Origin: Solirubrobacterales bacterium
GTDB lineage: Bacteria; Actinomycetota; Thermoleophilia; Solirubrobacterales; 70-9
Assembly: GCA_035573435.1 (NCBI GenBank)
Contig: DATMZR010000019.1
Span: 1-64,000 of the forward strand
Direction: 5' to 3'
Length of the DNA: 64,000 bases
The position numbers were made by a program, and so were the translations under genes. The notes beneath the pieces are model-generated. The model had not been told where the DNA came from and ran no database searches. It was given only the letters and a program-made list of their open reading frames with translations. Positions 18,891 to 58,009 of the stretch are shown piece after piece. How positions within the stretch are numbered: position 1 is the first letter of the stretch; each line of letters opens with the position of its first letter.

Positions 18891-18918
18891 TCTATACCGG
18901 AGCCGACTCATCTAGGAT
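18891..18918. promoter_or_regulatory. Divergent -10 boxes, P-type ATPase / osmoprotectant importer
   Basis: The minus strand has TATAGA (18891-18896), 9 nt from the ATPase ATG. The plus strand has TAGGAT (18913-18918), 12 nt from the ABC gene's GTG, with GAGAGG between. Confidence 0.45.
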
Positions 18919-18930
18919 CGGCGAGAGGCA

Positions 18931-20124
18931 GTGTCGCCCGACACCCAAGACACTCGGGACCGGGCCGCCGAGGCCCCTTCGGTGGTCTTCCGGCAGGTCA
19001 CCAAGCGGTATCCGGGCGCCGACGAGCCGGCCTTGGTGGAGCTGGACCTGGAGGTCTCGGGAGGCGAGATCTGTGTCTTCGTCGGTCCGTCGGGCTCCGG
19101 CAAGACCACCGCCATGCGGATGGTCAATCGCATGGTCGAGATCACCGAGGGCGACATCCTGGTTCGGGGCACGTCGGTGCGCGAGCGCTCGCCCGCCGAG
19201 TTGCGACGCGAGATCGGCTACGTGATCCAGCAGATCGGGCTCTTCCCCCACCGTACGGTCGGCGAGAACATCGCCACCGTTCCGCGCCTGCTGGGTTGGG
19301 ATCGCCGGCGCGTGGAGGATCGGGTGGAGGAGCTCCTGGACCTGGTCCGGATCGACCCCACGTTGCGACACCGGTACCCGGCGCAACTCTCGGGCGGCCA
19401 GCAGCAGCGCGTCGGGGTCGCCCGCGCGCTGGCCGCCAACCCGGGCGTGATGCTGATGGACGAGCCCTTCGGGGCGGTCGATCCGATCAACCGCGAGCGG
19501 CTCCAGAATGAGTTCCTCCGCCTCCAGGCCGAGGTGCGAAAGACGATCCTCTTCGTCACCCACGACATCGACGAGGCGATCAAGATGGGCGATCGGGTCG
19601 CCGTCCTCCGCGAGGGGGGGCATCTGGCCCAGTACGCCACGCCAGCCGAGCTCCTGATGGCGCCCGCTGACGACTTCGTCGAGGACTTCGTCGGCGCGGA
19701 TCGCGCCCTGAAGCGCCTGGCGCTCATGCGGGTGGCCGACATCGATCTCTGGGAGGCGCCGCTGGCCTTCCCGGGACAGGCCACATCCGAGGTCCGGGCC
19801 AAGCTCGACGGCGCCGAAGTTCCTCACGCTTTGGTGATCGACGGCGAGCGACGCCCTCTGGGTTGGCTCTCCGACGCCGATCTGCGGGCCGAGACCGTTC
19901 CGACCCGTCCCGACACCGGCCCACAGCCACTGCTCGAGCTGGACGACGTGATGCGCGACGCGCTCTCGGACCTGCTCCAGGCCGAGACCCGGTACGCCCC
20001 CGCGGTCGACGCCGAGGGGCGCCTTGCGGGGGTGCTCTCGGTGGAGATCATCTCCGAGTTCCTGACCTCGCCCGAGGCGCTGGTGGAGGAGCACACGGCG
20101 GCGGAGCGGCAGGTGGGGGACTAG
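18931..20124 (+). CDS. opuCA: Osmoprotectant ABC importer, ATP-binding subunit
   Basis: A 397-residue ATPase of the quaternary-amine (betaine/choline/carnitine) uptake family. Walker A GPSGSGKTT is at 52-60, signature LSGGQQQRV near 153-161, and Walker B LMDEPFGAVDP with Asp177/Glu178. The C-terminal part (about 270-385) is a CBS-domain pair, which in OpuA/OpuC senses ionic strength or c-di-AMP. GTG start. Two permeases and a binding protein follow with almost no gaps, giving a complete importer. Confidence 0.92.
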   Translation: MSPDTQDTRDRAAEAPSVVFRQVTKRYPGADEPALVELDLEVSGGEICVFVGPSGSGKTTAMRMVNRMVEITEGDILVRGTSVRERSPAELRREIGYVIQQIGLFPHRTVGENIATVPRLLGWDRRRVEDRVEELLDLVRIDPTLRHRYPAQLSGGQQQRVGVARALAANPGVMLMDEPFGAVDPINRERLQNEFLRLQAEVRKTILFVTHDIDEAIKMGDRVAVLREGGHLAQYATPAELLMAPADDFVEDFVGADRALKRLALMRVADIDLWEAPLAFPGQATSEVRAKLDGAEVPHALVIDGERRPLGWLSDADLRAETVPTRPDTGPQPLLELDDVMRDALSDLLQAETRYAPAVDAEGRLAGVLSVEIISEFLTSPEALVEEHTAAERQVGD

Positions 20125-20126
20125 CA

Positions 20127-20909
20127 GTGCTCGTCCCGACGATCGCCCAAGCGAGCGCCGACTTCTTCCGTGATCGCTCGGATTCGAATTGCATCCAGGA
20201 CAACGGCGCCTTCTGCGCGGGCTGGGTGATCGACAACTTCGACCGCTACGTCGACCCGCTGCTTCAGCACGTGGTGCTCGTGGCCGTCTCTGTGGGCCTC
20301 GGCTTCCTGATCGCCTTTGCCATGGCGGTCGCCTCGCATCGGCAACGCTGGCTCGTCCCCGCGTTCATCGGCGCGACCGGCGTCCTCTACACGATTCCCA
20401 GCCTCGCCTTCTTCTTCTTGCTCCTGCCGATCACCGGCCGCGGTACTGACACGGCGATCATCGCGCTGACCGCCTTCACGCTCCAGATCATCTACAGAAA
20501 CATCGTCGCCGGGCTCGCCGACGTTCCGCGCGACGCCAAGGACGCCGGCCGCGGGATGGGGATGACCGAGCAACAGCTGCTCTGGCGCGTCGAGCTACCG
20601 CTCGCTGTGCCGGAGATCATCGCGGGGGTTCGGGTCGCCACCGTTTCCACCGTCGCGATCGCGAGCCTTGCCGTGTTCGCGGGCGGTGGTGGCCTCGGCT
20701 CGGAGATCGTCACCGGCTCGAACATCACATTCCACACCGGTGTCGTCACCGCCAGCACACTCCTGATCGGGATGGCAATCGCCTTCGACGTGGTCCTGTT
20801 GCTGGTCCAGCGGCGACTGACCCGCTGGCGGTCGGCGGGTGAGGGGCGCGGCGCGAGGCGCACGGACCTGCTCCGCACCCTGTCGCGGCGCGCTCACAGG
20901 ATGGGTTGA
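20127..20909 (+). CDS. opuCB: Osmoprotectant ABC importer permease 1
   Basis: A 260-residue inner-membrane permease with five or six hydrophobic helices. The EAA loop is DAGRGMGMTEQQLLWRVELPLAVPEI. It starts at GTG two nt after the ATPase stop. An extra N-terminal segment (about residues 8-35) with Cys22 and Cys30 precedes the first helix and may face outward. It pairs with the next permease. Confidence 0.88.
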   Translation: MLVPTIAQASADFFRDRSDSNCIQDNGAFCAGWVIDNFDRYVDPLLQHVVLVAVSVGLGFLIAFAMAVASHRQRWLVPAFIGATGVLYTIPSLAFFFLLLPITGRGTDTAIIALTAFTLQIIYRNIVAGLADVPRDAKDAGRGMGMTEQQLLWRVELPLAVPEIIAGVRVATVSTVAIASLAVFAGGGGLGSEIVTGSNITFHTGVVTASTLLIGMAIAFDVVLLLVQRRLTRWRSAGEGRGARRTDLLRTLSRRAHRMG

Positions 20910-21631
20910 TGACCGTCCCGCTCGCCTTGCTGGATTCGTTCTCGGGCGCCGTCGATTTCATCTTCAGCCAGCGGGAGTCGTTCGGCGGCGGCACCCAGGT
21001 GGGTGGCCTCGGCCAGGTGTGGGAGCTGACGCTCGAGCATCTGCAGGTGAGCGGCATTGCCCTTGCCGTCTCGCTTGCTCTCGCGCTGCCGCTGGGCCTC
21101 CTCCTTGGCCACCGTCGCACGGGCGAGCTGTTCGCGGTCGCGGCCGGGAACGCAGGCCGAGCGATCCCCGAGCTGGCGCTGATCGCCCTGCTGGTGGCCT
21201 TCGTCGGCACCGGGACGGTCAACGTCGCGATCGCCCTGGCGGTCCTGGGCATCCCGCCGATCCTCACCAACACCTTCGTCGGCGTTCATCAGGTCGATCC
21301 CCAGGCGGTCGGGGCCGCCCGGGGAATGGGGATGAGCGAGCTACAGATCGCCGTGCGGGTGGAGTTGCCGCTGGCTGTGCCGACGATCATGTCCGGCGTG
21401 CGTACCGCGGCGATCAACATCATCGCCACCGCGACGATCGCACCGCTCGCAGGCGTGCTCACGCTGGGCGACTTCATCCTCGCCCGCAACGTCTATGGGG
21501 ATGAGGGAGTGCTCGCCGGCGCGATCCTGGTCGCCCTGCTGGCTCTGACCGTAGAGCTGACGCTGGCCGCGGTCCAGTGGGCGCTCACGCCCCGCGGCCT
21601 TCGCCTGCAGCGAACGGAGGCGTCCACATGA
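20909..21631 (+). CDS. opuCD: Osmoprotectant ABC importer permease 2
   Basis: A 240-residue permease with five or six hydrophobic helices and an EAA loop GAARGMGMSELQIAVRVELPLAVPTI, closely like permease 1, so the channel is a heterodimer. The ATG overlaps the previous stop (TGATG). A tandem-repeat leader separates it from the binding-protein gene. Confidence 0.88.
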   Translation: MTVPLALLDSFSGAVDFIFSQRESFGGGTQVGGLGQVWELTLEHLQVSGIALAVSLALALPLGLLLGHRRTGELFAVAAGNAGRAIPELALIALLVAFVGTGTVNVAIALAVLGIPPILTNTFVGVHQVDPQAVGAARGMGMSELQIAVRVELPLAVPTIMSGVRTAAINIIATATIAPLAGVLTLGDFILARNVYGDEGVLAGAILVALLALTVELTLAAVQWALTPRGLRLQRTEAST

Positions 21632-21640
21632 GTGCCGAGA

Positions 21641-21744
21641 GTGTGCATAGGATTGCCCCGCGCCTCCGGATGCGGAGGGGTGCACACGAGAGAGGAACCA
21701 GCGCCTCCGACACGCGGAGGGGCACACGAGAGAGGAACCGCCCG
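21641..21744 (+). promoter_or_regulatory. Structured leader before the osmoprotectant-binding lipoprotein gene
   Basis: GTGTGCA (21641-21647) can pair with TGCACAC (21681-21687) of repeat A, or in shorter form with GCACAC of repeat B (21722-21727). The two pairings exclude each other. Each repeat also holds its own CCTCCG/CGGAGG hairpin. It ends in the working ribosome site GAGAGG. It is riboswitch-like in layout, but I do not recognise a known class. Confidence 0.45.
21660..21739 (+). repeat. Two tandem copies of a 39-40-bp hairpin-plus-SD unit
   Basis: Copy A (21660-21699) and copy B (21701-21739) are nearly identical. Each is CCTCCG, a 4-5-nt loop, CGGAGG, then a shared tail CACACGAGAGAGGAACC. 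Only copy B's AGAGAGG serves a start codon (ATG 21745). Confidence 0.85.
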
Positions 21745-22728
21745 ATGAGAGACGATCCACGTCTACGCGTGCTGCTGGCGCTGGTCGCCGCGTTCGCCCT
21801 GGCCTTTGGACTCGCCGCCTGCGGAGATGACGACGACGAGAGCGACGGGGGCGGCGGCGGCACGAGCGCGAACCTGATCGAGGAGAACCCGGACAACAAC
21901 GGGGTCTCGATCAAGGTCGGGTCCAAGAACTTCGACGAGCAGTTGATCCTCGCCGAGATCTACGCCCAGGGGCTGGAGGCCGCGGGCTACGACGTCAGCA
22001 CGGACCTCAATCTCGGCGATGAGACCATCGCGTTCAAGGCGCTCACCAGCGGCGAGATCGACGCGTACCCGGAGTACACATCGACAATCCTGACCTCGAT
22101 CTTCGACGTGGCGCCAGAGGACGTGCCGGGCGACGCCCAGCAGGCGTTCGAGGACTCGCAGGACGAGTTCGACAAGCGCAACTTGGTGGCGTACCCGCCG
22201 ACGCCGTTCTCGAGCGCGAACGCGGTCGGGCTGCTGACCAAGACGGCCGACGACCTCGGAGTGAGCACCATCTCCGACCTCGAAGGGAAGTCGCAGGACC
22301 TGGTGCTCGCGGGCTCGCCCGAGTGCCGCCAGCGAATCGACTGCCTGCTCGGTCTGGAGCAGAACTACGGGCTCGAGTTCAAGGAGTTCACGCCGGTGGA
22401 CATCGGTCTGCGCTACGAGGTGCTCGACAACGGCGACGCGGACCTGTCGATCCTGTTCACCACCGACGCCCAACTGTTCACCGACCCCGATAAGTACACC
22501 GTGCTCGAGGATGACAAGCACGTGCTGCCCGCGGGGAACGTGCTCTTCAGCGTCAGGAAGCAGACCGCGGACGAGGCTGGGCAGGACCTCGGCGACACGG
22601 TCGAAAACGTGCAGTCCAACATGACGGTCAAGGTGATGCAGGAGCTCAACGCTCGCGTCGCCATTGACAAGGAGAAGCCGGAGGACGTCGCGCACGAATA
22701 CCTGGTCGAGTTCGGGTACGTGAAGTAA
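21745..22728 (+). CDS. opuCC: Osmoprotectant-binding lipoprotein
   Basis: A 327-residue substrate-binding protein of the OpuAC/ProX type. The signal peptide ends in LAAC with lipid-modified Cys26, followed by an acidic Gly-rich linker. The mature part has KVGSKNFDEQLILAEIYAQGLEAAG and EIDAYPEYTSTIL, typical of glycine-betaine/choline-binding OsmX-like proteins. It completes the importer begun at 18931. The TAA stop shares a base with the next gene's ATG. Confidence 0.9.
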   Translation: MRDDPRLRVLLALVAAFALAFGLAACGDDDDESDGGGGGTSANLIEENPDNNGVSIKVGSKNFDEQLILAEIYAQGLEAAGYDVSTDLNLGDETIAFKALTSGEIDAYPEYTSTILTSIFDVAPEDVPGDAQQAFEDSQDEFDKRNLVAYPPTPFSSANAVGLLTKTADDLGVSTISDLEGKSQDLVLAGSPECRQRIDCLLGLEQNYGLEFKEFTPVDIGLRYEVLDNGDADLSILFTTDAQLFTDPDKYTVLEDDKHVLPAGNVLFSVRKQTADEAGQDLGDTVENVQSNMTVKVMQELNARVAIDKEKPEDVAHEYLVEFGYVK

Positions 22729-56744: not shown

Positions 56745-56767
56745 AGTCTATTGGCGCCCACTAGGAT
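56745..56767. promoter_or_regulatory. Divergent -10 boxes, pepA / thiolase
   Basis: The minus strand has TAGACT (56745-56750), 9 nt from the pepA GTG. The plus strand has TAGGAT (56762-56767), leaving a leader of about 50 nt before the thiolase ATG. Confidence 0.5.
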
Positions 56768-56824
56768 CTTGATGGACCCCCGGCGGCTCCGAAAAGCCGC
56801 CGATGACCCGAAGAAAGGCGTCAG

Positions 56825-58009
56825 ATGTCGCAGACAGTCATCCTCGGCACCGCTCGCACACCCTTCGCGAAGATGGGAGGGGCGCTTTCGTCGAAGAGCG
56901 CCGTGGAGCTCGGAGGAACGGCGATCGCCGCTGCCCTGGACCGCGCCGAGCTGCCACCGGATCAGGTCCAGCAGGTGATCTACGGCCAGGTCCTGCAGGC
57001 CGGCCAGGGCCAGATCCCCTCCCGCCAGGCGCAGATCGAGGCCGGGATTCCGAAGGAGGTCCCCTCGGAGACGATCAACAAGGTCTGCGCCTCAGGCATG
57101 AGAACCATCGGCCTGGCCGACCAGGCGATCCGAGCGGACGACCTGGAGCTGGCGGTCACGGGCGGCATGGAGTCGATGAGCGGCGCTCCCTACCTCCTCC
57201 CGGGGGCTCGCTTCGGGTTCCGGATGGGCGACGTGCAGGCGATCGACTCGATGACCCACGACGGGCTCACGAACCCATTCACCGACAGGCAGATGATCGA
57301 CGAGGCAAGCGACGTCGCGGCGGAGCTGGAGCTGACCAGGGCCGACATGGATCGCTGGGCCGCCCGCTCCCATCAGCTCGCCGCCAAGGCGACCGACGAG
57401 GGACGACTGGCGGAGGAGATCGTCGGCGTCACGGTGAAGACCCGCAAGGAGGAGGCGGAGGTCGTCCACGACGAGGCGATCCGGCCTGAGACGACCGTGG
57501 AGGTCTTGGCGAAGCTGAAGCCGATCGGTGGCCCCGACGCCACCCATACGGCGGGCAACGCCCCCGGGGTCAACGACGGCGCCGGCGCGGTCGTGGTGGC
57601 CTCCGAGGGGTGGGCGAAGCGCGAGAGTCGTTCCCCGCTGGCCCGGATCCTCTCGTATGGCACCGTTGCCGACGACTTCCCCTACCTGGCTCGGACACCG
57701 GCGGGGGCAGCGAAGCAGGCGCTCGAGAAGATCGGTCGCTCGCCCTCCGACGTCGACCTCTGGGAGATCAACGAGGCCTTCGCCTCGGTCGCGATCAACT
57801 CCGTTCGGATGTTGGGTGTCGACGAGGAGAAGGTGAACGTGAACGGCGGCGCGATCGCCCTCGGCCACCCGATCGGCGCCTCCGGAGCCCGGATCGTCGG
57901 CGCCCTGGTTCACGAGCTGCGCCGGCGCGGCGGGGGACTTGGCTGCGCTGCGATCTGCAGCGGCGGCGGCCAGGGCGACGCGATCGTCCTGGAGGTGAAC
58001 GGCGCCTAG
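56825..58009 (+). CDS. Acetyl-CoA acetyltransferase (thiolase)
   Basis: A 394-residue thiolase. Cys88 lies in NKVCASGMRTI, His348 in GGAIALGHPIGASGAR and Cys378 in CSGGGQGDAIVLE. NKVCASGMK-type motifs are typical of biosynthetic/AtoB-like acetyl-CoA acetyltransferases, so it may make or split acetoacetyl-CoA. Ribosome site AAAGG before the ATG. A HAD phosphatase and the acyl-CoA mutase follow on the same strand. Confidence 0.93.
   Translation: MSQTVILGTARTPFAKMGGALSSKSAVELGGTAIAAALDRAELPPDQVQQVIYGQVLQAGQGQIPSRQAQIEAGIPKEVPSETINKVCASGMRTIGLADQAIRADDLELAVTGGMESMSGAPYLLPGARFGFRMGDVQAIDSMTHDGLTNPFTDRQMIDEASDVAAELELTRADMDRWAARSHQLAAKATDEGRLAEEIVGVTVKTRKEEAEVVHDEAIRPETTVEVLAKLKPIGGPDATHTAGNAPGVNDGAGAVVVASEGWAKRESRSPLARILSYGTVADDFPYLARTPAGAAKQALEKIGRSPSDVDLWEINEAFASVAINSVRMLGVDEEKVNVNGGAIALGHPIGASGARIVGALVHELRRRGGGLGCAAICSGGGQGDAIVLEVNGA

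Follow-up and report, generated by a model that had tools for sequence, protein, structure and literature searches.

A probable internal promoter with a tandemly duplicated 5'-terminal hairpin ahead of an OpuAC-type binding-protein gene in a Solirubrobacterales bacterium

The 113-nt gap ahead of the binding-protein gene in an osmoprotectant-transporter operon of a Solirubrobacterales bacterium probably harbors an internal promoter for this gene, with a 5'-terminal hairpin that is duplicated in tandem. RNA polymerase would recognize a TAGGAT box at 21648-21653 and initiate at approximately 21660-21662, which would give rise to a separate binding-protein mRNA. The first bases of this mRNA would fold into a short hairpin rich in GC, and an unstructured stretch of purine-rich sequence with the Shine-Dalgarno (SD) sequence and the ATG at 21745 would come next. 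The internal transcript would add to the read-through mRNA from the operon promoter at 18913, so that more binding protein than permease may be produced. The 40-nt hairpin-SD cassette was probably doubled by replication slippage, which is the simplest route and would have left a spare hairpin together with a spare SD that lacks a start codon. Most likely, the arrangement amounts to gene-dosage control of an ordinary kind rather than to a novel RNA switch that senses a ligand. The repeat, the box with its promoter-like placement elsewhere in the genome and the recurrence of box and single hairpin in relatives are computational findings, from which the transcript, the stoichiometric purpose, the slippage and any role of the hairpin are inferred. 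All coordinates refer to the window, which is the whole stretch of 64,000 nt that was analyzed, and the relevant features are the following:

18913-18918, + strand: TAGGAT, -10 box of the operon's first promoter, ahead of the ABC ATPase gene (GTG at 18931); assigned because six of nine relatives have this box where their operon begins
20909-21631, + strand: second permease gene (BPD_transp_1; Pfam PF00528 and relatives)
21628-21630, + strand: in-frame ATG overlapping the permease stop codon (ATGA), with GGAGG at 21616-21620; unlikely to be where the binding-protein gene starts (sequence, codon statistics); not mentioned in the initial annotation
21641-21647, + strand: GTGTGCA, potentially pairing with the tail of copy 1 (sequence, fold); upstream of the predicted start
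21648-21653, + strand: TAGGAT, -10 box of the proposed internal promoter (recurrence in the genome and in relatives); missed by the initial annotation of this DNA
21660-21662, + strand: predicted transcription start, 7-9 nt past the box, placed by the spacing between TANNNT and leaderless starts
21660-21699, + strand: unit 1, with hairpin CCTCCG-GATG-CGGAGG (21663-21678), tail (21683-21699) and an SD without start codon (repeat searches, folding)
21700-21739, + strand: unit 2, with hairpin CCTCCG-ACACG-CGGAGG (21704-21720), tail (21723-21739) and the working SD (repeat searches, folding)
21745-22728, + strand: OpuAC-type lipoprotein binding-protein gene (Pfam PF04069; start matches relatives)

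The intergenic gap and its tandem unit

The product of the binding-protein gene contains an OpuAC domain (PF04069) that scored 152.5 bits versus a cut-off of 21.2 in Pfam, and according to Pfam the gene is accompanied by genes for an ABC ATPase and permeases and, downstream, by a gene for a luciferase-like monooxygenase. Between the permease stop codon (21629-21631) and the ATG at 21745 lie 113 nt, whereas the neighboring gene junctions of the operon overlap. The initial annotation was correct in describing a gap inside an otherwise gapless operon, and the two near-identical hairpin-SD units that it placed ahead of the binding-protein gene were recovered as well. Tandem Repeats Finder returned a single array at 21660-21739 with a period of 40, 2.0 copies, 87% matches and a score of 123, and a repeat search of the window detected a 21-nt tail repeat at 21679 and 21719 that is 95% identical. 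Each unit consists of a 6-bp hairpin followed by a purine-rich, SD-bearing tail, CACACGAGAGAGGAACC, which is found at 21683-21699 and 21723-21739. An exact search of the 2.58-Mb genome yielded no further copy of this tail, ruling out that it belongs to a dispersed repeat. A DNA search with the leader in 61 genomes did not find a homologue of the repeat, and the matches obtained were mostly to signal-peptide sequence. Neither hairpin is followed by a T tract, and no intrinsic terminator was reported in the 113-nt gap.

The tandem, two-unit form was seen in this genome alone, while relatives have a single unit. As far as visible, the second copy seems to be private to this genome, although the three genomes of the same genus are all drafts and the junction is visible in only one of them. 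The duplication is probably neutral or of small quantitative effect. The initial annotation had further pointed to GTGTGCA upstream of the units as a possible pairing partner of their tails. This heptamer (21641-21647) is indeed complementary over its full length to TGCACAC in copy 1, but since it lies upstream of the predicted transcription start, the pairing would be possible in read-through RNA only.

The TAGGAT box in this genome and in relatives

The first gene of the operon has a TAGGAT box 12 nt ahead of its GTG. The sequence CATAGGATNG occurs eight times in the genome, compared with a single occurrence of the reversed control. No fewer than six of these sites, among them the internal one, are followed within 100 nt by a long ORF, and four of them show the spacing of leaderless starts. 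Within 404 kb of the 2.58-Mb genome, in stretches picked partly for containing CATAGGAT sites, TANNNT preceded the ATG or GTG of long ORFs with gaps of 6, 7, 8 and 9 nt in 20, 37, 18 and 16 cases, respectively, compared with 1-11 cases, mostly 1-7, for any other gap. This peak at 6-9 nt matches the leaderless-promoter signature that was described for Actinobacteria together with a TANNNT consensus of the -10 box (PMC3160421). Considering the spacing peak over these 404 kb and the presence of the box at operon starts here and in relatives, it is very probable that TAGGAT functions as a -10 box in this lineage. A consensus scan detected no sigma-70 promoter with a -35 element, and the combination TTGAC N15-19 TAGGAT is absent from the genome. 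This lack counts against the proposed promoter, but the -35 element is often weak or absent in high-GC actinobacteria, and we did not take it as defining.

If transcription from the internal TAGGAT starts at approximately 21660-21662, the first bases of hairpin 1 come to lie at the 5' end of the predicted mRNA: the stem of this hairpin begins 10 nt past the box and 1-3 nt from the predicted start. The same layout, consisting of TAGGAT (56762), a hairpin (CGGCGGCT/AGCCGCCG), an SD and an ATG, precedes a thiolase gene (56825) in the same window, indicating that the layout is not specific to osmoprotection. The hairpin in the thiolase leader (56762-56825), CGGCGGCTCCGAAAAGCCGCCG, is strong, with -16.6 kcal/mol over 32 nt after the box region.

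In relatives, the box recurs at both positions of the operon. At the operon start, TAGGAT is found here and in six of the nine relatives checked (G002, G017, G007, G028, G032 and G062), with TAGAGT in G022 and TACGAT in G008. As judged from the operon starts at L091, L093, L094, L096, L097 and L098 and at 18913 in the window, the first gene of the operon is leaderless or nearly so, and TAGGAT stands just before its start in most relatives. In the gap before the orthologous binding-protein gene, G002, which belongs to the same genus, as well as G007, G008, G022, G015 and G012 contain TAGGAT and G017 contains TAGGCT, followed in all seven by an SD and an ATG. All of these except G008 have one hairpin of unrelated sequence 6-10 nt past the box, which brings the count to seven of eight leaders when this genome is included. 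The TAG doubles as the stop codon of the permease gene in six of the relatives, and this double role accounts for part of the conservation of the box; neither here nor in G008 does the box serve as stop codon, and yet it is kept. Over the 32 nt from the predicted start, the leaders had a better free energy than dinucleotide shuffles (combined P 0.0004 for the eight leaders, or 0.0015 leaving the window out); the eight are not independent of each other, and only two of them fall below P 0.03 individually. The difference was modest (P 0.02-0.04) when the comparison was made with 15 further TAGGAT sites in this genome that are not leaderless.

Relatives of genus g12 have short gaps with neither box nor hairpin, those of genus g11 carry a different, TACGGT-like box before the binding-protein gene, and in the distant family f3 the gene starts at an ATGA overlap without any gap. 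Judging from this distribution, the internal promoter appears to be a feature of part of the family. In four g11 loci (L019, L021, L023 and L026), the gap contains TTGA(A/C)C and GGATACGGT blocks, some with a CCGCCCGGGCGG-like palindromic spacer, which perhaps form a regulated promoter of a different type in the corresponding place. RNAalifold on the MAFFT-aligned leaders returned zero consensus pairs and no covariation; the hairpins differ in sequence and length and align poorly. With respect to the conservation and covariation among relatives that the initial annotation had looked to, the tandem unit is thus conserved neither in sequence nor in copy number and yields no consensus pair, whereas the layout of box plus hairpin recurs. 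This recurrence of promoter box and single hairpin in the gap of relatives also supports, as a hypothesis, its suggestion that the leader raises the amount of binding protein over that of the permeases.

Alternative readings of the leader

The main rival to an internal promoter is RNA processing, which we regard as unlikely. In this case, a nuclease would cleave the read-through mRNA immediately ahead of hairpin 1, leaving a structured 5' end that shields the binding-protein segment, as known from papBA. For E. coli, a cut immediately ahead of a stable structure, with stabilization of the downstream segment, is documented (PMC5927463), and the hairpin of the relatives is located at the same place. 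However, what is conserved ahead of the hairpin is a promoter box of the lineage, and the hairpin begins where the start distance of such a promoter would put it, both of which argue for initiation rather than cleavage. It is improbable that the leader acts as a cis-regulatory switch, in which osmolarity or a ligand would shift the RNA between two hairpins, a rod to which both copies contribute and a third fold in which the signal-peptide codons (21763-21785) pair with copy 2, and thereby gate translation or mRNA decay. These folds, which the initial annotation did not list, do compete in the computations: the minimal forms of the two hairpins and the rod are nearly equal in energy (-22.0 and -21.9 kcal/mol, respectively), the full rod is the minimum-energy fold of 21661-21740, and the pairing of copy 2 with the coding region is the minimum for 21661-21800. 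Compared with shuffled sequences, the region folds only mildly better (z-scores of -1.78 for 21629-21760, -2.16 for 21661-21740 and -1.22 for 21661-21800). The computed ensembles leave the working SD and the start codon largely free of pairing, with unpaired probabilities of 0.56-1.0 for the SD (21730-21737) and 0.95-0.98 for the ATG in the predicted short transcript, and of 0.41-0.99 and 0.93-0.98, respectively, in read-through RNA. Gating of translation by osmolarity or a ligand, as envisaged in the initial annotation, is therefore unsupported, and the identical layout ahead of the unrelated thiolase gene argues against specificity for osmolarity. Rfam contained nothing relevant to the whole window at the gathering threshold or to 21400-22000 at a relaxed threshold, where only sub-threshold miRNA and snoRNA noise appeared, and the initial annotation had not matched the leader to the ydaO, glycine or guanidine riboswitches either. 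The lack of the tandem unit in relatives and the failure to find covariation among the poorly aligning leaders likewise speak against a switch. Very improbable indeed is the narrower idea that the duplicated unit forms a bistable, salt-responsive RNA, two hairpins versus rod, that tunes decay or translation of the binding-protein mRNA; if true, an ordinary 5' hairpin would have been turned into an osmosensor by being duplicated in tandem. The arms of the pairing with the signal-peptide codons (21697-21719 and 21763-21785) are 23 nt long and 78% complementary and enclose the SD and the ATG in the 43 nt between them. When the coding sequence is included, this pairing beats hairpin 2, but the resulting fold is not beyond chance (z -1.22).

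Very unlikely, too, is a coding function of the leader, by which translation from the ATG at 21628, coupled to the permease stop, would add a 39-residue N-terminal extension and the repeats would represent an intragenic duplication. This ATG overlaps the stop codon (ATGA), has a GGAGG 7 nt upstream and opens a frame of 39 codons that reaches 21745 without a stop, and the distant f3 relatives begin the gene at a similar overlap. In contrast, the codon statistics of 21628-21744 are those of non-coding sequence, with a mean log-likelihood of -4.40 versus approximately -3.5 for genes and with arginine encoded by AGA or AGG in 5 of 11 cases versus 7 of 147 in genes (P 9e-5), and on these grounds the leader was rejected as a coding N-terminus. 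Additionally, the 40-nt period places the two copies in different reading frames, and in the nearest relatives the gene begins at the position corresponding to 21745 and encodes a normal lipoprotein signal. We give equally little credence to the possibility that the leader is non-functional, with a box that arose by chance or has decayed, hairpins that reflect chance in GC-rich sequence and a duplication that is debris of recent slippage. The modest fold scores of the single leaders and the occurrence of the duplication in one genome only are consistent with such a view, but TAGGAT is kept in relatives, even where it is not a stop codon, and the combined hairpin statistics stay below 0.002. 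With the internal promoter as the preferred reading, an apparent riboswitch candidate is recast in concrete terms, and the locus would illustrate, in an actinobacterial lineage that has received little study, how a binding-protein gene placed last among its transporter genes can obtain its own dose. Short hairpins right after TAGGAT recur, both in relatives and ahead of the thiolase gene, and should not be taken for ligand sensors without checking relatives.

Comparison with known systems

A literature search on internal promoters of binding-protein genes with stem-loops found no such case. The REP elements of malE-malF and stem-loop terminators behind binding-protein genes are thought to set the ratio of binding protein to permease. 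Both kinds of element lie downstream of the binding-protein gene, whereas the hairpins described here precede it and lack a U tract. The riboswitches for c-di-AMP (ydaO), glycine and guanidine are hairpin leader RNAs as well, some of them ahead of transport genes, but they differ from the present leader in that it has no Rfam match. Stabilizing stem-loops at the 5' terminus are described for ompA and papA of E. coli and aprE of B. subtilis in works cited in PMC3997798. As in these mRNAs, the hairpin would lie at or a few nt from the 5' end and is followed by the SD; unlike in these mRNAs, the unit is duplicated, the 5' end is only predicted, and the stabilization that is known for them is putative here. 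The role of the hairpin, if any, is possibly protection of the 5' end from RNases. Another internal promoter followed by a 5' UTR with a double stem-loop is that of esxB-esxA in Mycolicibacterium smegmatis; the double stem-loop of the esxB 5' UTR did not stabilize a reporter mRNA, and no sign was seen that its two hairpins are a tandem duplicate (PMC11728522).

A parallel in gene order comes from a survey of Clostridia, in which promoters were predicted in 52.9% of the long intergenic regions of clusters with 3'-located binding-protein genes, compared with 20.8% for 5'-located ones (PMC9045158). The clusters in that survey are from a different group of bacteria, while the promoter proposed here has a bare TAGGAT box and a doubled leader hairpin. 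In both cases, the binding-protein gene is the last of the transporter genes, the translocator genes are tightly packed and a long gap contains a predicted promoter. The proposed internal promoter thus agrees with the published link between predicted promoters and 3'-located binding-protein genes (PMC9045158).
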